Positions 1 to 9,065 of a stretch of 9,065 nt of DNA are shown in pieces (the stretch's first letter is position 1; every line of letters begins with the position of its first letter). The notes beneath the pieces are model-generated. The model saw only the letters and a program-made list of their open reading frames with translations. It was not told the DNA's origin and did not search any database. This DNA is from an uncultured Eubacteriales bacterium (GTDB lineage: Bacteria > Bacillota_A > Clostridia > Lachnospirales > Cellulosilyticaceae): the NCBI GenBank assembly GCA_900556665.1, contig USPX01000067.1, positions 1-9,065 of the forward strand, written 5' to 3'. Both the position numbers and the translations under genes were made by a program.

Positions 1-189
1 CTGAGTGAGCGGGCCCTGCAGGTGCTGCGGCTACAGGATCGGGGCCTGACCCGGTCTGAGATCGCCCGGCAGCTCCAGCTCAGTGAGCGGAGCGTCAAAT
101 ACCAGTGCGAGCAGGCCTACCACAAACTGGGTACCAGCAACAAGGTGGAAGCTCTTGCCGCCGCGCGGAAATTAAATCTCTTAAATTAA
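1..189 (+). CDS. C-terminal end of a LuxR/MalT-type HTH regulator (partial)
   Basis: Frame 1 is open from the first base to a TAA at 187-189 and gives 62 residues. It opens with LSERALQVLRL, continues with LTRSEIARQLQLSERSVK and then the recognition-helix region ending in HKLGTSNKVEALAAARKL. This matches the GerE/LuxR winged-type HTH (usual pattern: LTxRExEVLxLxxxGxxxxEIAxxLxxSxxTVKxHxxxIxxKLGxxxRxEA). The domain binds DNA as a dimer and normally sits at the C-terminus of a response regulator or MalT-like ATPase; the N-terminal part lies outside the window, so the input signal is unknown. The first 170 bases are about 65% GC, unlike everything downstream, so the gene is foreign to its neighbours or joined artificially. 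The last codons are AT-rich yet still give the expected LuxR-type ending (RKLNLL). Convergent with hydF, with only 14 bases between the two stop codons. Confidence 0.8.
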   Translation: MSERALQVLRLQDRGLTRSEIARQLQLSERSVKYQCEQAYHKLGTSNKVEALAAARKLNLLN

Positions 190-196
190 ATCTCTT
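169..196. repeat. Perfect 14-bp tandem duplication at the GC-content junction
   Basis: The unit AAATTAAATCTCTT occurs twice head to tail, at 169-182 and 183-196. It lies exactly where the ~65% GC segment stops and the AT-rich segment starts. The LuxR-type stop codon falls inside the second copy. A looser relative of the unit (TTTAAATATCTCAT) occurs at 213-226 inside the 3' end of hydF. It could be a target-site-like duplication, replication slippage, or a join artefact; the sequence alone does not decide. Confidence 0.85.
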
Positions 197-203
197 ATAA
201 ATA

Positions 204-1397
204 TTAGTTGCTTTTAAATATCTCATAACTTCTTTCTAAGATACCACTTAGAAAGGCTAACACCATACCGTAATTAGTGATTGGAACCCCCTTTTCATTA
301 CATATACGTGCACGATTACAAACTGTTTTACGTGTCAGCATGCATCCTCCACAGTGAATAACCAACTCATAATCTGACAAATTTCCCGGGAAATCTTGCC
401 CTGCAATATATGTAAATTCTAGTTCACCACCCACATATTTACTTAAACCTTTTGGAATTTTAACACGACCAATATCTTCATGGGATACATTATGTGTGCA
501 CCCTTCAAGTATAAGCACCTTATCCCCTGGCTTTAAAGTCTTTATCTTTTGGATCCCTTTCATAAATAGATCCAAGTCACCCTTTTGCCTAGACATCAAA
601 AGTGAAAATCCTGTAAGCTTAATTGTGTTAGGTACAATTTTACTTACCTTAGCAAAGGCCTGTGAATCAGTAATAACCAAATCCACATCCGGCATTTCTT
701 TTAATGCTTCTTCTAATTCTGTATCACGTACTACATATGATTTAATCCCATGATCAAGGCAATCTCTAATACATTGTACTTGCGGTAAAATAATTCTTCC
801 CTTTGGTGCTTCGCTATCTATCGGTACTACTAAAATAACCTTAGCACCATAAGGTAATAAATCTCCTACTAAAGGCTTATCTTCTTCCTCAGCTTCAAGT
901 TTACTTATAATAACTTCTTTTAACTTAATTATGCTCGTTTCATCTGCTATAGTTGTTAAAATACTCTCCTTAAATTCTTGTTGTATATGTACAAGTTCTA
1001 CTGGAGTCACCTTATCTATTTGGCTAATAACTACAACATAAGGAATGGCATACTTTTTGAAATATAGCTTAAAAGCATTAAAAGCTTCTATATCTATATC
1101 ATTTGCTGCCATCACATAAATGGCTAGATCTGTACGCATAAGCATATCCATTGTTTTCTTAATTCTAAGCCTACCTAATTCTGTCTGATCTTGCACGCCT
1201 GCCGTATCTACCCACACAACTGGCCCAACAGGTATAAGTTCCATTGCCTTAATGACTGGGTCTGTAGTTGTTCCTTCTTTTTCAGATACAATGGCCACAT
1301 CTTGCTCTACTAGATGATTTAATAAAGATGATTTTCCTGAATTAGTTTTTCCATAAAACACAATATGTTTACGATTTGCATTTGGTGTTGTTTCCAT
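204..1397 (-). CDS. hydF: [FeFe]-hydrogenase maturation GTPase HydF
   Basis: HydF is the scaffold on which the 2Fe subcluster of the H-cluster, built by the radical-SAM enzymes HydE and HydG, is assembled before transfer to the hydrogenase. The 397-aa length is normal. The N-terminal GTPase domain shows the P-loop GKTNSGKSS (residues 16-24), the switch I GTTTD (42-46) and DTAG (64-67). The G4 motif reads SQID (125-128) rather than the usual NKxD. The C-terminal domain carries the [4Fe-4S] ligand pattern: C300-T-H302, then H348-C349-x2-C352. An ATG start is preceded by GGAGGAG with 7 bases of spacing. It follows the TM1266-like gene by 47 bases on the same strand and probably shares its transcript. 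No terminator is visible after the stop, because the foreign GC-rich segment begins almost at once. hydE and hydG are not in the window. Confidence 0.96.
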   Translation of the reverse strand: METTPNANRKHIVFYGKTNSGKSSLLNHLVEQDVAIVSEKEGTTTDPVIKAMELIPVGPVVWVDTAGVQDQTELGRLRIKKTMDMLMRTDLAIYVMAANDIDIEAFNAFKLYFKKYAIPYVVVISQIDKVTPVELVHIQQEFKESILTTIADETSIIKLKEVIISKLEAEEEDKPLVGDLLPYGAKVILVVPIDSEAPKGRIILPQVQCIRDCLDHGIKSYVVRDTELEEALKEMPDVDLVITDSQAFAKVSKIVPNTIKLTGFSLLMSRQKGDLDLFMKGIQKIKTLKPGDKVLILEGCTHNVSHEDIGRVKIPKGLSKYVGGELEFTYIAGQDFPGNLSDYELVIHCGGCMLTRKTVCNRARICNEKGVPITNYGMVLAFLSGILERSYEIFKSN

Positions 1398-1444
1398 ATA
1401 TATTCTCCTCCATACTTATCTATTTTTATTAATTTATCTTTAAA

Positions 1445-1696
1445 TTATATTATTTCTTTTTTAGCAATAGCCGTTTTAACTGTTACACCTTTTATATTAC
1501 CTATTTTCCCAGTTAAACTATTAATCTCATCTAAGCTACCAGTCACAACTATTGACACCACTGAAATTTCTTGGTCTAAGGGAATTCCCATACGCCCCTT
1601 AGTATTTCCTCTAAAACTTGCTACTACTTCATTAAATTGTACCTGACATTCTTTAGGATTTTCTAATATGGCACTAATTACTGCTATCTTATTCAT
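1445..1696 (-). CDS. TM1266-family iron-only hydrogenase system putative regulator
   Basis: An 83-residue protein starting MNKIAVISAILENP and ending VKTAIAKKEII. The N-terminal IAVISAILENPKE, the central FRGNTKGRMGIPL and the later ISVVSIVVTG plus INSLTGKIGNIKGVTVK are typical of the small ACT/NikR-C-like family called 'iron-only hydrogenase system regulator' (Thermotoga TM1266 type), found next to [FeFe]-hydrogenase maturation genes. Its biochemical role is not established; no DNA-binding domain is visible. I prefer the ATG at 1696 because GGGAG lies 8 bases upstream; a GTG at 1711 in the same frame would add five residues but would place this ribosome site inside the coding region. It heads a two-gene unit with hydF, which supports a shared role in hydrogenase maturation or its control. 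Confidence 0.9.
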   Translation of the reverse strand: MNKIAVISAILENPKECQVQFNEVVASFRGNTKGRMGIPLDQEISVVSIVVTGSLDEINSLTGKIGNIKGVTVKTAIAKKEII

Positions 1697-1749
1697 TTTC
1701 TCATCTCCCACTCTTGCTAATTCCCTTACCTATGCTATATACAAATAAA

Positions 1750-1773
1750 GGACTATGTCTTTAGACACAGCCC
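1750..1773 (-). promoter_or_regulatory. Hairpin at the 5' end of the TM1266-hydF leader
   Basis: Read on the minus strand, GGGCTGTGTC, loop TAAA, then GACATAGTCC forms a 10-bp stem with two G-U pairs. On the plus strand two of these pairs become A-C mismatches, so the structure belongs to the minus-strand RNA. It is followed by the T-rich TTTATTTGT, giving it a terminator-like look. No minus-strand gene lies just upstream that would need a terminator. Instead the hairpin begins about 7 bases after the predicted transcription start and ends about 54 bases before the TM1266 start codon. It may be an attenuator or an mRNA 5'-end stabiliser (inference). Confidence 0.6.
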
Positions 1774-1786
1774 TATAATTATCTTT

Positions 1787-1815
1787 ATTATACCTTGCTC
1801 ACTTAAGTTTATCAA
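1787..1815 (-). promoter_or_regulatory. Sigma-A-type promoter for the TM1266-hydF unit
   Basis: Minus-strand -35 TTGATA (1810-1815) and a perfect -10 TATAAT (1787-1792) are separated by 17 bases. Transcription would start near 1780, giving a leader of roughly 84 bases before the TM1266 ATG. Confidence 0.75.
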
Positions 1816-1936
1816 ACCATTTATCTTTTACAACAACTTATATTTTTAAGCATTTTATAAATTTTTATTTATGTATATTCTTTATATATATATCTTATAC
1901 TATTTTTAACAACTACTCATAAAAAGGAGTGTCTCA

Positions 1937-2293
1937 ATGAATTTAAAAAAATATATACGTCTTACTATATTCTTAGTACCTTTGGTACTGGGTATTACTT
2001 TATTAGCTAATTCATCTAATGAAACAATTCGTGTTACACTTACTCATCCTTATAACCTTTTATTGAATAACCGACAGATTTTACAGGATCAACCCACTCT
2101 ATTTTATAATAATGTTTTATATGTACCTGCTAAGGATTTTGCCAAAGAGCTTGGCTATACTGTTGAATACGATAATAGCACTGCTGTCATTACTAATACT
2201 GAAATTCCTAAACCTTCTTCTAAAACTACTTCCTCTCCTAAGCAAAGTATTTCTACTTACTTTAGAAGTTCACTCCGTCCTCTCTTACCATGA
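1937..2293 (+). CDS. Small secreted protein with a copper-amine-oxidase-N-like (stalk) domain
   Basis: A 118-residue protein. Residues 1-25 are a signal peptide or anchor: MNLKKY is followed by a hydrophobic stretch through about residue 24. Residues 40-87 resemble the 'copper amine oxidase N-terminal' (stalk) domain common in Clostridia and Paenibacillus secreted proteins: a short strand ending in LLLNNRQI, then NNVLYVPAKDFAKELGYTVEYD and a final AVIT strand. Despite the family name this domain binds no copper and has no catalytic role; it is an extracellular structural module. The tail (residues 91-118) is rich in Ser, Thr, Lys and Pro and looks disordered. AAGGAG sits 8 bases before the ATG. 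The gene stands alone: it is divergent from the TM1266-hydF unit and has its own strong terminator 28 bases after the stop. One domain copy is fewer than usual, but there is no frameshift; the other frames downstream do not continue it. Confidence 0.75.
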   Translation: MNLKKYIRLTIFLVPLVLGITLLANSSNETIRVTLTHPYNLLLNNRQILQDQPTLFYNNVLYVPAKDFAKELGYTVEYDNSTAVITNTEIPKPSSKTTSSPKQSISTYFRSSLRPLLP

Positions 2294-2321
2294 ACACCAT
2301 CTGTTTTAGCATTTTAATCCC

Positions 2322-2364
2322 AAAGATCGAATAAATATATCTACTATATTTATTCGATCTTTTT
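2322..2364 (+). terminator. Intrinsic terminator after the stalk-domain gene
   Basis: A perfect 18-bp stem (2322-2339 with 2345-2362), five-base loop, closed by AAAGATCG/CGATCTTT and running into a T tract on the plus strand. The stem is AT-rich apart from the GATCG core. The minus-strand side lacks a comparable T tract. Confidence 0.88.
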
Positions 2365-2432
2365 CATATTTATATCTTATTTTTTCTTATCCCTTAGCCT
2401 ATTATTTTGTCACCATTACTAGATACAAGCCA

Positions 2433-2473
2433 TATAATGTAGTGTAACTAAGATATCTTCCCACTCTTAGTTA
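2433..2473 (+). promoter_or_regulatory. -10-like element and leader hairpin of the repeat-protein/kinase unit
   Basis: TATAAT at 2433-2438 is a good -10 but has no well-spaced -35; TTGTCA at 2407-2412 is 20 bases away. Read as CATATAAT it also resembles a sporulation sigma-E -10 (CATACANT) with one mismatch, but I see no convincing -35 for that either. Just downstream, TAACTAAGA (2445-2453) pairs perfectly with TCTTAGTTA (2465-2473), an 11-base loop between. The hairpin would sit at the very start of the mRNA, 21 bases ahead of the ribosome site. There is no T tract, so it is not a terminator. Confidence 0.4.
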
Positions 2474-2500
2474 ACATTAATTATAAGGAGCTGTTTAAGT

Positions 2501-3001
2501 ATGGGTTATTTAAAATCTTGTGGTAACAAATCAAATTCTTGTGGTAAAGACAACAATCGTTGTTGGGCATGTGGAAGAGATAGTATGAAATCTTCTACTG
2601 ATTTCTCTAGCCGTAAAAATGATTCTTCTGATTTCTCTAGCCGTAAAAATGATTCTTCTGATTTCTCTAGCCGTAGATATGATTCTTCTTTTTCATCTTC
2701 TGACGAATCTAGATCTTCTGACCGCAGAGATAACAAACGTGGCCATGGCCGTAAAGAAAATAAAGACAACTGTGGTTGCAAAGATAATTGCAGACGTAAA
2801 AACCGTAAAGACAACTGTGGTTGCAAAGATAATTGCGAACGTAAAGACCGTAAAGACAACTGCGAACGCAACAATCGCAACAATCACAGAGACAATTGCG
2901 GATGCAAAGATAACAAGGGTCATGGCCACAAAGAAAACAGAAAACACGGCTGTAAAGACAACTGCGGATGCAACAATCGCAAAGACAATTGCAGATATTA
3001 A
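2501..3001 (+). CDS. Ser/Asp/Arg-repeat and Cys-rich repeat protein, possible kinase substrate or spore-coat-like protein
   Basis: I recognise no family. The 166-residue protein has three parts. Residues 1-28 hold four cysteines, including CWAC. Residues 29-85 are serine-rich, with three copies of the ten-residue unit DSSDFSSRKN (the first and last imperfect), then SSSDESRSSDRRD. Residues 86-166 are built from KDNCGCKDNC-type units with 13 further cysteines, giving 17 in all. The rest is almost entirely Lys, Arg, Asp, Asn, Glu, Gly and His, so the chain is highly charged and probably disordered. There is no signal peptide or membrane segment. AAGGAG lies 10 bases before the ATG. The kinase gene follows after 31 bases with no terminator between, so the two are probably co-transcribed. 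Low-complexity, Cys- and Ser/Arg/Lys-rich proteins are common among spore coat proteins (e.g. CotG), and the Ser repeats are plausible phosphorylation sites; both are inference. A metal-binding role for the Cys/His tail is an alternative. Confidence 0.75.
   Translation: MGYLKSCGNKSNSCGKDNNRCWACGRDSMKSSTDFSSRKNDSSDFSSRKNDSSDFSSRRYDSSFSSSDESRSSDRRDNKRGHGRKENKDNCGCKDNCRRKNRKDNCGCKDNCERKDRKDNCERNNRNNHRDNCGCKDNKGHGHKENRKHGCKDNCGCNNRKDNCRY
2591..2690 (+). repeat. 30-bp tandem repeats encoding DSSDFSSRKN
   Basis: The copy at 2621-2650 is followed by a near-identical one at 2651-2680 (two base differences, turning RKN into RRY). A partial copy precedes it (2591-2620, diverged in its first bases but identical from 2600 on) and the next unit starts at 2681 before decaying. 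The near-identity at the DNA level points to recent duplication by slippage or unequal exchange, in frame. Confidence 0.9.
2762..2878 (+). repeat. 45-bp tandem repeats encoding the KDNCGCKDNC unit
   Basis: Copy 1 (2762-2806) and copy 2 (2807-2851) differ at three of 45 bases. A shortened third copy (2852-2878) keeps KDNCER only. Looser forms of the same motif (RDNCGCKDN, CKDNCGCNNRKDNC) continue to the end of the gene. Confidence 0.88.
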
Positions 3002-3032
3002 TTATTAGTTAATGTAAGACGGATGTCATCTT

Positions 3033-3749
3033 ATGGATAGGTATTTCAAACCCGGTACCCGAATTAAAGATTTCACTATTATTAAAATACTTGGTCAAGG
3101 ACGTTATGGCATAGCTTATCTTGCTGAAAATAAACATGGCAGAAAATGTGTTATTAAGCAGCTCAAAAAAGATATGTTAAGCTCTACTCGTGATAAGTTA
3201 TTTTATGAACAAGAAATTCTAAAAAGTCTTCATTCTCCTTATATCCCTGAATTTATGGGTACCTTTAAAACCCGGGATGCAGAAGGCTATATATTAGAAT
3301 ATATAGAAGGCACACCTCTTGATGTTGTTGTCAAAAAAGAAGGTTATAGATTTTCTAGACGAGAAATTTATAACATTGGCAGCCAGCTTCTGCGAATCAT
3401 CGAAAATTTGCAGGCATCTCATATTGTTCATAGAGATATTCGGCTTCCAAATGTTATTCTACGCCCTAATGGAAAACTAGCTCTTATAGATTTTGGTCTA
3501 GCAAGATACATTGATCATGAGAGATATACTCGTAAAGAAGATTATTGGTTCTTGGGCGATTTCTTAATTCGTCTATACTATACTTCATATTATATAGGTT
3601 CTGCTGGTTCAACGGCTCCTTGGTACTATGAACTAGCTCTTACCAGAGATGAAAGATACTTTTTAAAGAAATTATTAGGTATCAATGGTAGTTTTAAATC
3701 TTTGTCAGATATTAGATACAACTTAAATGAACTTAAATCTATGACCTAA
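3033..3749 (+). CDS. Compact Hanks-type Ser/Thr protein kinase
   Basis: A soluble 238-residue protein consisting only of a kinase domain. It has the glycine loop GQGRYG (21-26), the ATP-anchoring lysine in VIKQL (K42), a likely helix-C glutamate (E59 or E61), the catalytic loop HRDIRLPN (133-140, D135 and N140 present) and the magnesium-binding DFG (153-155). All residues needed for phosphotransfer are therefore present. The loop lysine of HRDxKxxN is Arg here. The activation segment is very short: the usual GTxxYxAPE is missing and DFGLARY is followed within 15 residues by DYWFLGD (170-176), the subdomain IX equivalent. There are no transmembrane or PASTA regions, so it is not PrkC/PknB; small soluble kinases such as B. 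subtilis YrzF or YabT are closer in size (comparison from memory). The ribosome site is weak (only GGA about 9 bases upstream). It lies 31 bases after the repeat-protein gene and the unit ends in a strong terminator, which suggests kinase and substrate (inference). Confidence 0.87.
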   Translation: MDRYFKPGTRIKDFTIIKILGQGRYGIAYLAENKHGRKCVIKQLKKDMLSSTRDKLFYEQEILKSLHSPYIPEFMGTFKTRDAEGYILEYIEGTPLDVVVKKEGYRFSRREIYNIGSQLLRIIENLQASHIVHRDIRLPNVILRPNGKLALIDFGLARYIDHERYTRKEDYWFLGDFLIRLYYTSYYIGSAGSTAPWYYELALTRDERYFLKKLLGINGSFKSLSDIRYNLNELKSMT

Positions 3750-3753
3750 ATTT

Positions 3754-3801
3754 AAACCGTCTAGTTATATGTGCCCCTCTTATAACTAGACGGTTTCTTT
3801 T
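3754..3801 (+). terminator. Intrinsic terminator closing the repeat-protein/kinase unit
   Basis: A perfect 16-bp stem (3754-3769 with 3781-3796; core CCGTCTAG/CTAGACGG), 11-base loop, followed by TTTCTTTTT. It begins four bases after the kinase stop codon. Confidence 0.92.
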
Positions 3802-3852
3802 TATATTTCGTTTATCCCATTTTTGTCTATCTAAACTTAATAGGTGGTATGT

Positions 3853-4413
3853 ATGTCAAATAAATTATGTAGCATTTTAGATATTTATCCTGAAAGTTTT
3901 ACTGCCAACTTATACACAACTTCACATTTCAGAATGATTGGTTTGATAGATGCACGTATACAATATTCTTATGGGGTAGAAACAGTTAAATTAGGTTACT
4001 ATAGTTCCTCTGGCACTAATGGTGGGAAAACAAAAGGACTTTGGTATCCCATTGTAGGTATTAAACTTAAAAATGGTCCGTTTATTGAATTCACCTATTA
4101 TATTAATAAGGTTTTAACCCACACAACCTCTTACGGCACTGCAAAAAAAGGCTGGCTTGCAAAATCCCTTTTCTTTTATAAATCTGATTCTAGTGGTATA
4201 GCAGGTTTTGCTTCAAGTCACTACCACCATTCTTTATTAACCATTGGAGAAACCCTTAGAAGCCTTTATAACTTAGATGCGTATACAAATCTAAGTACTT
4301 TAACACCAAAATTTCTTAATTATTCACTTTTATCTTCAGAAATATATCCTGGTAATACACATAGTCAACGTGAAAATTATGAAAATCTGATTCATGATAT
4401 CTTTGTTGCTTAA
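3853..4413 (+). CDS. Hypothetical protein, unrecognised family
   Basis: A 186-residue protein starting MSNKLCSILDIYPESF. I recognise no domain. It is rich in Tyr, Ser, Thr, Leu and Gly, with alternating hydrophobic/polar runs suggesting beta strands, and has no signal peptide, membrane helix or clear catalytic motif. A glycine turn region GTNGGKTKG is followed by LWYPIVGIKLKNGPFIEFTYY; SSHYHHS near residue 123 is the only histidine cluster. I chose ATG 3853 because AGGTGG lies 5 bases upstream; a GTG at 3844 in frame would add three residues but overlaps that ribosome site. It stands alone between the terminator after the kinase and a bidirectional terminator. I see no convincing promoter in the 50 bases between. 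Whether it belongs functionally with the upstream pair is unknown. Confidence 0.7.
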   Translation: MSNKLCSILDIYPESFTANLYTTSHFRMIGLIDARIQYSYGVETVKLGYYSSSGTNGGKTKGLWYPIVGIKLKNGPFIEFTYYINKVLTHTTSYGTAKKGWLAKSLFFYKSDSSGIAGFASSHYHHSLLTIGETLRSLYNLDAYTNLSTLTPKFLNYSLLSSEIYPGNTHSQRENYENLIHDIFVA

Positions 4414-4416
4414 TGC

Positions 4417-5257: not shown

Positions 5258-8200
5258 TTAGTGCTCTACCACTCCTGATTCTCCTAACTTCTTAGAGAAT
5301 TTGTGAAGCTTTTCATTGGCTTTTTGTTTTAGTAGAGCGCCTATAATTAGTGCCCCTATCAAGAAACAAAATAGCACTATAATATCTTTAATTAATGTTT
5401 CATAATAGATACCTGCAATTGCTTCTCTCATCCCACTAATAGCATAGGTAAATGGTAAAAGATTATATAGTCTTTGGAATAGTATAGGTGTTACTTGTAT
5501 TGGGAAGGTTCCCCCTGATCCTCCAAGTTGTAATACTAATAATACAACGCCTAATGCCTTTCCTACATTACTAAATAGTGCCACTAATGTATACACAATA
5601 GCTATAAACACAACGCTATATGCCATCCCTAAAACCACGAATAATAACGGATTTTTAGCCACTACCCCTAGCACAATAATATCTCCAGAAGCAGCTATAA
5701 AAGCTTGTAGTATACCACATAAAGCAAATAAAAAGAATTTCCCAAAATATTCTTCTATAGGTGTATACTTAAAATCTGCATTTTTAGCTTCTGTTGTAAG
5801 CAGTGAAGTAAGCAGTAATGCCCCTACCCATAAACATAAAGTTGTATAAAATGGTGCAAGTCCTGTACCATAGTTAGGCACTGGATATAAAGCTGTGGTT
5901 TTTAAAACAACTGGTGAAGCTAAGAAATCACTTTTATTACTATTATCTGCAGTCAGCTGGTTAATAAGATCTCTGATATCTACATTTTCATTAAGCTCTG
6001 CTATCTTATTTCTTACCTTATTAATCTTTTCTTGCAAAGTAGGTATATGAGATTTAATTTCCAAAATATCACTCTCAAGTACTTCTGACTTTTCACTTAA
6101 TCTAGTACCAAAGTCTCTTAAATAATTAAGTTCATCTTGAATACTAGTTAGGAGCCCTGTCGTATCATCTACAAAGCTTGCCATCTTACTAAGTTGTTCT
6201 TTTAACTTAGCAATCAAATCTGAATCTAAAAGGTTAATTGTATTATCTAAAGAGGCTTGTATATTATAGGTAAGCTCTGAGATATTTTGAAGTGTTTCTT
6301 CTACAACCACCTTATCTTCTAACTTACCTCTTAGACTTGCTAATCGTTCTTGGAGCACTGTTAAATCAGAATTAACTTCTTCCACTTTTTCTTGTATTCT
6401 AGCGGATTCACTATGCAGCGTTTTGACCACACGCTTTGCAACATCTGAAAGTTTATCTTGTACTGTCTCTATATTGACTATAATACTATCTATTTTTTCA
6501 CTGCCCCCTGTTGCTATATCGTTAATTGTAACTTTAAACCTTTTAATAGCAGTAACAGTGTCATTCATTAATTCTTCTAGTGTTGTAAGCTTATCTGAAA
6601 GGCTTGTGATACGCACTTCAATAAGGGTACGAATATTCCCTATTGCTGAACTTAGTCCGCCGTTATTGGCTTTTAATTCATTAAGCTTTTGCCCAGCTAA
6701 TGTTGGATTATCTGAAAGCCCTATAAGTTCAGTTAACTTTGCCTTTATATTGTTTAATGCATAAATTGCATCACCAAACACCTCTGGGTTATTACTTAGA
6801 TTCTCCTGAGTTGTATTTATGAGGTCAATTGTTTCATTTACTTGACTTTCAAACACGCCATTATCTGTATTAGCTGTTTCTACACTTTCCTCTTCTTCTC
6901 CTATAGGATTTGTAAATAATGTATCTACATCTGTTGGAGGTCCATTTATTTCCTCAGTATCAATATTCTCATCTACCACAGGTGCTTCTTCTGCATCAGG
7001 TGGCGTCTCTGGTTCTCCTGACACAGGTGGCTGTGTCACTGGAGGTGCTTGTGGCTTTATAATAGGTGGTACAATGGCTTCAATCTTACTAAGAATAGTT
7101 TGTAAAGCAAGTAGTTGACTATTTAACTTCTGTCCTATCTTTTGAATATTTGTCTTTAGTTTTGTAATATCTGCTGATAATGCTGTACTTAATTTTTCAA
7201 GTTTATCTAATGTGGCGATTACTTGATCAGCATTATCTAATTTATCTTGTAAATTTCTAAGTGTGACGATATAGTCATCTAAAATATTAATCATTTCATT
7301 CTTTGTACTTGTAATTGAACTACTTAAATCCCTATCTAATTCAGCTGCTTTATCTGCCAGTTCTATAAGACGTGTCTTAGCATTTTCCATTTTTGAAATA
7401 CTTGTATTAATATCATTAATTAAAGTAGGTTTATTAAGCTCAATAGAATTTTTTAGTTCTGCTGTAGACTTTGAGATATCTGCAAATATAGTTTGAATCA
7501 AAACAAGATTTTCTTTAATCTCTGGAATGACTTCTTCTGGTTTTGTACTTAAGTCTCTTAGATTCTCTGCAATATCCCCATTAAAGCTTGCAAGTTGTTC
7601 TATGATATTTTGTAATGAAACTATATTCTTATCATTACGTTCAATGGCTACTCTACCATTATTTGCAGTATCCGCAAGAGATTGCAATCTACCTTCTAGT
7701 CCTGGACATCTATCACTTAATTGAGTCATTAAATCTTCTAATCTTTGAACCGTTGGATATTGTGCATCTAACTCAATCCCTATATCATGCATGGCAGAAA
7801 TAATCTTATTGGCCACCGTTTCAATAAACGAAGTCGTAATTTGGTGTTGAATAGTCGTTGCACCCTTATCTGTAATCTTAGGCGCAATGGCATTAATCTT
7901 TTCATTGACATAGTACTCCAGGTCAGGCTTTACAGGGTCTGCATCTACTAAAGTTAAGATTTTCTCTGAGAAGTCAGCTGGAATAATTAAAGTTGCATAA
8001 ACATCTCCTTTAGTTACCGCTGCCATCCCCTCTTCCCTTGTATCATAAAATACCCATCCCAAAGCATTATTTTCCGTCAAGGACTTTACAACATCTTTTC
8101 CGATGTTTATCTCTGTATCTCTAATACTTCCACCAACATCTTCATTTACAATGGCTACCTTAATCCCTTTTGTATTCCCATAAGGATCCCAAGAGGCATA

Positions 8201-8335
8201 AATATTAACCCATGCATAAAGAGATGGTAAAAAGATTAAACCCCCTATAACAACTAAGCTTACCCAATTGCTTAGTATCTTGCCTAAGTCGATTCTAAAT
8301 ATCCTAAAACTATTTCTCATTAACTTAACTACCAC
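5258..8335 (-). CDS. yhgE: YhgE/Pip (phage infection protein) family membrane protein
   Basis: A 1025-residue protein with the family layout. There is an N-terminal membrane segment (about 24-44; IGGLIFLPSLYAWVNIYASW follows the diagnostic FRIDLGKILSNW). The region AIVNEDVGG...G.V.ATLIIPADFSEK is typical of YhgE and ABC-2-type permeases. A long extracellular part (about 130-810) is dominated by coiled coil. A C-terminal bundle of about six helices (about 820-1020) contains GGSGGTFPIQ and LPFTYAISGMREAIAGIYYE. Family members include L. lactis Pip, needed for infection by c2-type phages; B. subtilis YueB/EsaA of type VII secretion are related in architecture. The true function is unsettled. Around 420-495 the coiled coil is interrupted by a Pro-rich then strongly acidic linker. 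The GTG at 8335 is preferred: AGGAAGGAG is 7 bases upstream, whereas an in-frame ATG at 8359 has no usable ribosome site and overlaps the promoter -10. Longer than the roughly 775-900 aa of common homologues (from memory). Confidence 0.92.
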   Translation of the reverse strand: MVVKLMRNSFRIFRIDLGKILSNWVSLVVIGGLIFLPSLYAWVNIYASWDPYGNTKGIKVAIVNEDVGGSIRDTEINIGKDVVKSLTENNALGWVFYDTREEGMAAVTKGDVYATLIIPADFSEKILTLVDADPVKPDLEYYVNEKINAIAPKITDKGATTIQHQITTSFIETVANKIISAMHDIGIELDAQYPTVQRLEDLMTQLSDRCPGLEGRLQSLADTANNGRVAIERNDKNIVSLQNIIEQLASFNGDIAENLRDLSTKPEEVIPEIKENLVLIQTIFADISKSTAELKNSIELNKPTLINDINTSISKMENAKTRLIELADKAAELDRDLSSSITSTKNEMINILDDYIVTLRNLQDKLDNADQVIATLDKLEKLSTALSADITKLKTNIQKIGQKLNSQLLALQTILSKIEAIVPPIIKPQAPPVTQPPVSGEPETPPDAEEAPVVDENIDTEEINGPPTDVDTLFTNPIGEEEESVETANTDNGVFESQVNETIDLINTTQENLSNNPEVFGDAIYALNNIKAKLTELIGLSDNPTLAGQKLNELKANNGGLSSAIGNIRTLIEVRITSLSDKLTTLEELMNDTVTAIKRFKVTINDIATGGSEKIDSIIVNIETVQDKLSDVAKRVVKTLHSESARIQEKVEEVNSDLTVLQERLASLRGKLEDKVVVEETLQNISELTYNIQASLDNTINLLDSDLIAKLKEQLSKMASFVDDTTGLLTSIQDELNYLRDFGTRLSEKSEVLESDILEIKSHIPTLQEKINKVRNKIAELNENVDIRDLINQLTADNSNKSDFLASPVVLKTTALYPVPNYGTGLAPFYTTLCLWVGALLLTSLLTTEAKNADFKYTPIEEYFGKFFLFALCGILQAFIAASGDIIVLGVVAKNPLLFVVLGMAYSVVFIAIVYTLVALFSNVGKALGVVLLVLQLGGSGGTFPIQVTPILFQRLYNLLPFTYAISGMREAIAGIYYETLIKDIIVLFCFLIGALIIGALLKQKANEKLHKFSKKLGESGVVEH

Positions 8336-8358
8336 TATACTGCTCCTTCCTGATGTCA

Positions 8359-8387
8359 TTTATATAAATTTGTTACCCCTTCATCAA
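8359..8387 (-). promoter_or_regulatory. Promoter of yhgE
   Basis: Minus-strand -35 TTGATG (8382-8387) and -10 TATAAA (8359-8364), spacing 17. The start site falls near 8352, downstream of the ATG at 8359, giving a short leader that contains the GGAAGGAG site for the GTG at 8335. Confidence 0.65.
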
Positions 8388-8944: not shown

Positions 8945-9009
8945 TGTTTTATTTGGTGCAAAGTTATTTGAGCTAACACCTTTTAAAATACCCTTTTCAG
9001 TAATATATT

Positions 9010-9065
9010 TACGACATGTGCTAGTTAATCTTTAATTATGTAAAGGATAAATATGGTAATTATAG
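9010..9065. other. Unexplained right-edge segment after the SLH break
   Basis: These 56 bases show no resemblance to SLH coding sequence in any frame. On the plus strand AAAGGA followed five bases later by ATG (9053-9055, encoding MVII at the edge) could be the start of a gene leaving the window, but four codons are too few to support a call. No transposon end or target duplication can be recognised. Confidence 0.35.

Follow-up and report, generated by a model that had tools for sequence, protein, structure and literature searches.

A serine-rich protein and a Hanks-type kinase encoded side by side in spore-forming Bacillota, a candidate module for phosphorylation at the spore or cell surface

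The locus and its three genes

The window, i.e., the whole stretch of 9,065 nt that was analysed (contig USPX01000067.1 of an uncultured Eubacteriales bacterium), carries on its plus strand three consecutive genes, encoding a low-complexity protein, a kinase and a third protein that belongs to no recognised fold. The following features were assigned:

2411..2439, plus strand: sigma-K-type promoter, -35 CACC (2411-2414), 16-nt spacer, -10 CATATAATG (2431-2439), matching the loose pattern only
2446..2472, plus strand: 5'UTR hairpin with the arms AACTAAGA and TCTTAGTT, part of inverted repeat I8, arms mostly retained in Cellulosilyticum ruminicola
2485..2490, plus strand: ribosome binding site AAGGAG of the serine-rich gene, assigned from the sequence
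2501..3001, plus strand: serine-rich and cysteine-rich partner protein, 166 aa, serine block at about 2588-2725, cysteine block at about 2726-2998, without a GHxYYK motif
3033..3749, plus strand: Hanks-type Ser/Thr kinase, 238 aa, with all catalytic residues but no activation segment
3755..3795, plus strand: intercistronic hairpin, stem 3755-3766/3784-3795, 3' side T-rich, covariation among relatives
3853..4413, plus strand: third gene, 186 aa counted from ATG, a family without a name that is present at 40 of 87 kinase loci

The serine-rich reading frame, the 31-nt gap behind it and the full set of catalytic residues in the kinase were confirmed from the sequence as they had been given in the preliminary description. 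That description had also proposed a two-gene unit closed by a single terminator, which has to be revised, as in the window's clade the unit consists of three genes (partner, kinase and 186-aa protein) and the presumed terminator is a hairpin that lies behind the kinase gene and 5' of the third gene and recurs at this place in relatives. Counted over 21 of 26 regions (L010, L012, L015, L020 and L027, with short or different hairpins, were excluded), double changes were found in 9 of the 12 stem pairs, 95.2% of the cells were paired, and none of 500 shuffles came out as high. Several members of the clade have a gap of 0-18 nt 5' of the third gene, which leaves no room for the hairpin.

The region from 178 to 4414 is syntenic with C. 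ruminicola (L001), with 80.6% nucleotide identity over 178-2530 and 82.4% over 3004-4414, while most of the serine-rich gene stays unaligned. Identical positions amount to 88/98 in the promoter and 5'UTR and 618/714 in the kinase gene, compared with 206/359 in the partner gene; within this conserved frame, it is the partner coding sequence that changes fast. The serine block of the window partner is built from a 30-nt direct repeat in three copies and its cysteine block from a 45-nt repeat in five copies. Serine makes up 14% of the whole protein and 43% of residues 29-75; residues 76-166 contain no serine and 14% cysteine. The protein has no match in Pfam, NCBIfam or PADLOC.

The kinase matches PF00069 with an E value of 2.1e-26 and possesses the glycine loop (G21, G23), the lysine (K42), the alpha-C glutamate (E59), the HRD motif (H133-R-D135), the asparagine (N140) and the DFG motif (D153-F-G), and what it lacks of a Hanks-type kinase is the activation segment with APE and the P+1 loop. 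The distance from the DFG aspartate to the alpha-F aspartate is 17 residues in the window kinase and in 57 of the 87 kinases compared (range 16-36), against 36 residues in yeast PKA (1fot, taken from the alignment), and the activation segment/APE region is therefore missing and the Hanks domain incomplete. Thus, the canonical Hanks kinase of the preliminary description stands as a Hanks-type enzyme with intact catalytic residues that is not CotH, but not as a canonical one, and because the APE/P+1 region is absent, peptide binding cannot be canonical either. Two other assignments were tried and rejected: PF08757 (CotH) gave no match at an E value of 0.01, and for the PD-T4-6/MAD6 defence kinases only the generic kinase part aligns (at best residues 7-170 of 238 with profile positions 46-213 of 659). 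None of the ten window proteins scanned is a defence protein.

Further genes and irregularities were noted in the surroundings. Positions 1937-2293 encode a protein of 118 aa that combines a signal-like start with a partial copper amine oxidase N-terminal domain, the gene of which is retained in C. ruminicola immediately 5' of the pair. HydF and a TM1266-like hydrogenase regulator are encoded on the minus strand (204-1711), and a 1033-aa YhgE/Pip/EsaA-like membrane protein lies at 5258-8359, of which C. ruminicola retains only parts at the same place. The first 165 bases have a GC content of 65% and contain the end of a LuxR-type HTH gene, compared with 33% GC in the rest of the window; only from 178 on is the sequence syntenic with C. 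ruminicola, and a unit of 14 bases occurs twice, at 169/183, so that positions 1-177 look like a mis-join at the contig end. At the other end (8945-9065), the frame of the SLH protein is open 5' of its listed start, and the similarity to C. ruminicola ends at 9007 and is followed by a stop, possibly a second contig-end artefact.

Conservation of the kinase and its partner

With a kinase alignment of 19 rows as the query, one scan of genome contigs yielded 41 loci. Whole-genome searches at an E value of 1e-40 found the kinase in 8 of 291 genomes of a class sample, in 8 of 24 genomes of the C. ruminicola family and in 40 of 194 genomes of the C. hydrogenum family, and at 1e-25 in 51 of 101 genomes of the family of Bacillus sp. 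FJAT-27245. At most 30 loci were taken per search. Merging on a 120-residue core reduced 109 loci to 87 distinct kinases, to which eight Bacillus-family loci were added that had been parsed separately and were not merged for near-identity; the resulting 95 loci are mostly best matches and not a random draw. A Bacteroidota locus with a partial kinase (L041) lies outside the parsed set.

At 91 of these 95 loci a small serine-rich gene adjoins the kinase gene or is fused to it. For 82 of the 87 kinases the script placed a partner next to the kinase gene, 67 times upstream, six times after a third gene, eight times in convergent orientation and once, at L040, by choosing a wrong ORF where a convergent partner is indeed present. 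Beyond these calls, L027 has a partner upstream of the kinase, recognised by eye, L035 has one as an in-frame fusion, and so do seven of the eight later-parsed loci have a partner at the kinase. The four loci without a partner comprise L054, with a divergent kinase, L099, L039, situated at a contig edge, and L030, with a short broken ORF that retains the motif described below. The preliminary description had expected adjacency to persist while repeat number varies, and had named kinases consistently devoid of a serine-rich neighbour as the contrary case; what we observed is adjacency at nearly all loci, with repeat type, number and length changing freely.

How rare such neighbourhoods are depends on the rule applied. 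A serine-rich ORF anywhere in the wide search area was found for 51 of 317 other genes from the same loci treated by the same rule, and loose nearness of such an ORF alone is thus not rare. With the partner upstream and on the same strand, the same rule gave 68 of 87 kinases (L027 by eye) against 3 of 317 control genes. A stricter rule, a small serine-rich ORF just upstream, gave 23 of 36 kinases and none of 337 other genes; this rule is stricter than the one behind the 91 loci, for which the 317-gene set provides the same-rule controls.

The partners are small genes rich in Ser, Arg, Lys, His, Gly, Tyr and Asn, with SR, SN, SK or SY repeats and lengths of 40-281 aa, and in 38 partners of the clade carrying the third gene the serine content ranges from 12 to 51%. 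What they have in common is a short motif, in its typical form GHxYYK, rather than the repeat. A broad version, G-[HYSCNKR]-x-[YHFRD]-[YF], occurs in 87 of 90 partners (the fused L035 not counted) against 10.0 expected from residue shuffling, and a narrow one, G[HSYR]x[HY]Y[KRSQ], in 69 against 1.2 expected, an excess that is somewhat flattering, as the patterns were derived from the sequences in which they were counted. A motif-bearing neighbour accompanies 87 of the 95 kinases; among the same-rule controls, a motif-bearing ORF at any place was found for 3 of 317 genes with the broad and for none with the strict pattern. The motif is absent from the partners of the window (the cysteine-rich variant), C. 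ruminicola and L040, and its position reads SCRGHNHF in Cellulosilyticum sp. (L005) and in L056 of the same family.

The Ser/Arg repeat by which the preliminary description characterised the partner is not its invariant part: L004 and L006 retain the N-terminal motif without such a repeat, and the window has the repeat without the motif. The cysteine array proposed as part of the substrate is present in the window but specific to a few lineages; 6 of the 38 partners of the third-gene clade contain at least 5% cysteine. In L052 and L053, a zinc-ribbon-like tail with CxxC pairs replaces the serine block. The upstream-type partners of the Bacillus-family loci L092-L117 start with a cationic, amphipathic-looking MLKKILKSIL-like segment, which could bind membranes. 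In nine of nine close partner pairs dN was lower than dS, from which we conclude that the partner ORFs are real genes; the window and C. ruminicola partners (dN 0.77, dS 0.89) have diverged too far to be judged. Besides matching none of the databases scanned for the window, the partner is easily overlooked in annotation, as on a Cytobacillus spongiae plasmid (L119), where its ORF (2260-2442), followed by the kinase and Spo0M, is absent from an incomplete gene table.

In a quick tree of the kinases, those with a convergent partner form one clade, the downstream arrangement needs two changes, although the starred branches are also compatible with one origin, and the L035 fusion falls within an upstream-type clade. 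Given these several rearrangements (upstream, after a third gene, convergent), the nearness of kinase and partner has outlived rearrangement. The pair is real, conserved and broader than the preliminary description supposed.

Promoters, downstream genes and sporulation

In the clade carrying the third gene, the region 5' of the partner contains the strict pattern [AC]AC[AC]-N15-17-CATAnnnTA, which corresponds to the sigma-K consensus of B. subtilis, at 21 of 32 loci and a loose form at 28 of 32. Shuffles by first-order resampling, which preserves dinucleotides approximately, gave means of 0.3 and 3.7, and other genes of the same loci gave 0/213 and 13/213, for the strict and loose forms, respectively. 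The window promoter, CACC-N16-CATATAATG, passes the loose pattern and fails the strict one. Where the serine-rich gene lies downstream, it has its own strict promoter in five of six cases. For C. difficile, sigma-E and sigma-K promoters are described as sharing a -10 element and differing at -35 (ATA or AC), and the P2 promoter of sigK as having the -10 CATATAAT and the -35 AC (PMC3789822). Among the 19 clostridial loci without a third gene, one has the strict and eight have the loose pattern, and sigma-K wiring is therefore shown for the window's clade only.

A different setting was found in the Bacillus family. Where the partner is upstream, 14 of 16 loci carry GAAAC-N15-18-CGTA (0.02 expected from the same kind of shuffles; control 0/148), a promoter pattern of the sigma-W type. 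Furthermore, the next gene is Spo0M-like at all 16 of these loci (PF07070 was confirmed for L119), and spo0M is listed as a core sigma-W gene of B. subtilis (PMC3498285). The eight later-parsed convergent loci of this family showed the ECF pattern in 0/8 and Spo0M, by a crude pattern, in 0/8; among convergent loci, L047 has a weak Spo0M-like match. The scanned stretches of the window's clade contain no Spo0M-like gene. Therefore, the same kind of pair seems to be attached to at least two programmes, and the wiring of the 16 Bacillus-family relatives points to vegetative envelope work. Their apparent tie to sigma-W and Spo0M means that a role in the spore coat does not extend to the family as a whole.

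SpoIVA is present in 40 of 40 kinase-bearing genomes of the C. hydrogenum family, with a base rate of 185/194, and in the class sample it is not enriched among carriers (5/8 vs 208/291 overall). One of the three SpoIVA-negative carriers has SpoVA and two do not, one of the latter being the partnerless L054. In favour of a spore role are the sigma-K-type promoter of the window's clade, which fits the spore envelope, and the 40 of 40 carriers with SpoIVA in the C. hydrogenum family; the missing SpoIVA enrichment in the class sample weighs against it, and the Bacillus-family branch favours a broader role in the envelope.

Possible function of the pair

Several known systems invite comparison. According to PMC7821199, at least 39 serines in CotB and 13 in CotG are phosphorylation targets of CotH in B. 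subtilis, and as described there a cationic protein with Ser/Lys/Arg repeats adjoins its kinase in a short, sigma-K-type expressed cluster, much as here, where the likeness in expression concerns the promoter pattern. Unlike CotH, the present kinase belongs to PF00069 and has no PF08757 match, most partners carry GHxYYK and there is a third, unrelated gene. CotH is encoded in 7 of 40 kinase-bearing genomes compared with 45 of 194 overall, which indicates that the module neither replaces nor needs CotH. The short Hanks-type kinases PrkD, YabT and YrzF of Bacillus are alike by description, sharing the fold and the occurrence in spore-forming Bacillota, and none of the 120 matches listed in a search is named YrzF. 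The bacterial spore kinases (CotI/YtaA) have an APH fold, an assignment that was rejected for the window kinase, as PF01636 aligns with just residues 117-161 (E 4.7e-6); they are alike in forming a spore-associated kinase family (PMC2860764). No paper describing the kinase-partner module was found in a search of open-licence literature, and the conserved adjacency points to a hitherto undescribed system for phosphorylation at the surface of spore or cell.

We consider it rather probable that a dedicated kinase-substrate pair builds the spore envelope here, with a CotG/CotH-like working but a kinase unrelated to CotH, and that part of the Bacillus family uses it for envelope stress. In late sporulation, RNA polymerase with the mother-cell factor sigma-K would transcribe the partner, the kinase and then the third gene, with the hairpin reducing or setting apart the expression of the third protein. 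The partner would be a short, probably disordered and strongly cationic protein with a serine every few residues, which the small kinase, probably always on as it is without the usual activation segment, would phosphorylate. A positively charged polymer would thereby acquire a mixed or negative charge, and the change of charge may set the time and place of partner assembly on the spore. The N-terminal GHxYYK of most relatives may serve as a handle for recognition by the kinase or by the assembly site; in the window partner, which has lost the motif, the Cys/His/Asn-rich C-terminal array could cross-link or bind metal.

That the partner is instead an activator or anchor of the kinase, with GHxYYK docking in place of the activation segment and the real substrate being the third protein or some other protein of coat or envelope, would agree with the motif and not the serine repeat being its conserved part, and with the repeat-less partners of L004 and L006. 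A conserved gene indeed follows in both settings, Spo0M at 16/16 upstream-partner loci of the Bacillus family and, in the window's clade, another family, found at 40 of all 87 loci, and CotG is reported to promote the phosphorylation of CotB by CotH (PMC7821199). However, nearly all partners keep a serine-rich low complexity despite its changing type, which a substrate role explains more easily, and the window partner has the serine block but no motif; we judge the activator reading unlikely. A general envelope-stress module, in which an ECF-induced, cationic peptide-like protein binds membrane or wall in a manner switched by phosphorylation and the clostridial CATA promoter reflects growth-phase control only, would account for the amphipathic-looking MLKKILKSIL starts, the sigma-W-type promoter at 14/16 Bacillus-family loci and the downstream Spo0M, which PMC3498285 counts among the core sigma-W genes of B. 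subtilis. It sits poorly with the sigma-K-type rather than ECF-type promoter and the absence of a Spo0M-like gene from the scanned stretches of the window's clade, as well as with the convergent Bacillus-family loci (0/8 for the ECF pattern and, by a crude pattern, 0/8 for Spo0M), and appears still less probable to us. As low-complexity ORFs arise easily, the loose rule finds one near 51/317 other genes and the reverse strand at the window locus also holds a 125-aa ORF, chance neighbours or a spurious ORF had to be weighed as well, but with controls at 3/317 for the upstream position and 3/317 for the motif, dN below dS in 9/9 close pairs and both motif and promoter conserved, this explanation is very improbable.

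The preferred reading of a dedicated kinase-substrate pair can be taken further. In eukaryotes, SR proteins with RS/SR dipeptide repeats are paired with the SRPK/CLK kinases, and the repeats, the kinase and a possible docking motif make the pair described here comparable, as an analogy only, with no homology shown. To the following, wider proposal we would give a little less than an even chance: the pair may be an ancient and hitherto unrecognised module of spore-forming Bacillota, in which a Hanks kinase without an activation segment recognises a disordered serine-rich partner by GHxYYK docking, as a counterpart of the SR proteins and their kinases. In Clostridia it would be combined with sigma-K and a protein whose fold is not recognised, and in part of the Bacillus family with sigma-W and Spo0M, so that one charge-switch polymer would serve the envelopes of both spores and living cells.

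Few coat proteins of B. subtilis are conserved in C. difficile, as stated in PMC3789822, and the module may bear on how clostridial spore layers are patterned. Its kinase has an evident substrate candidate, the partners share a conserved motif and the promoter can be read from the sequence, so that phosphorylation could be tested directly in dozens of species. The Bacillus-family branch provides an aerobic and genetically easy setting for such work and may contain a new element of the sigma-W/Spo0M axis.
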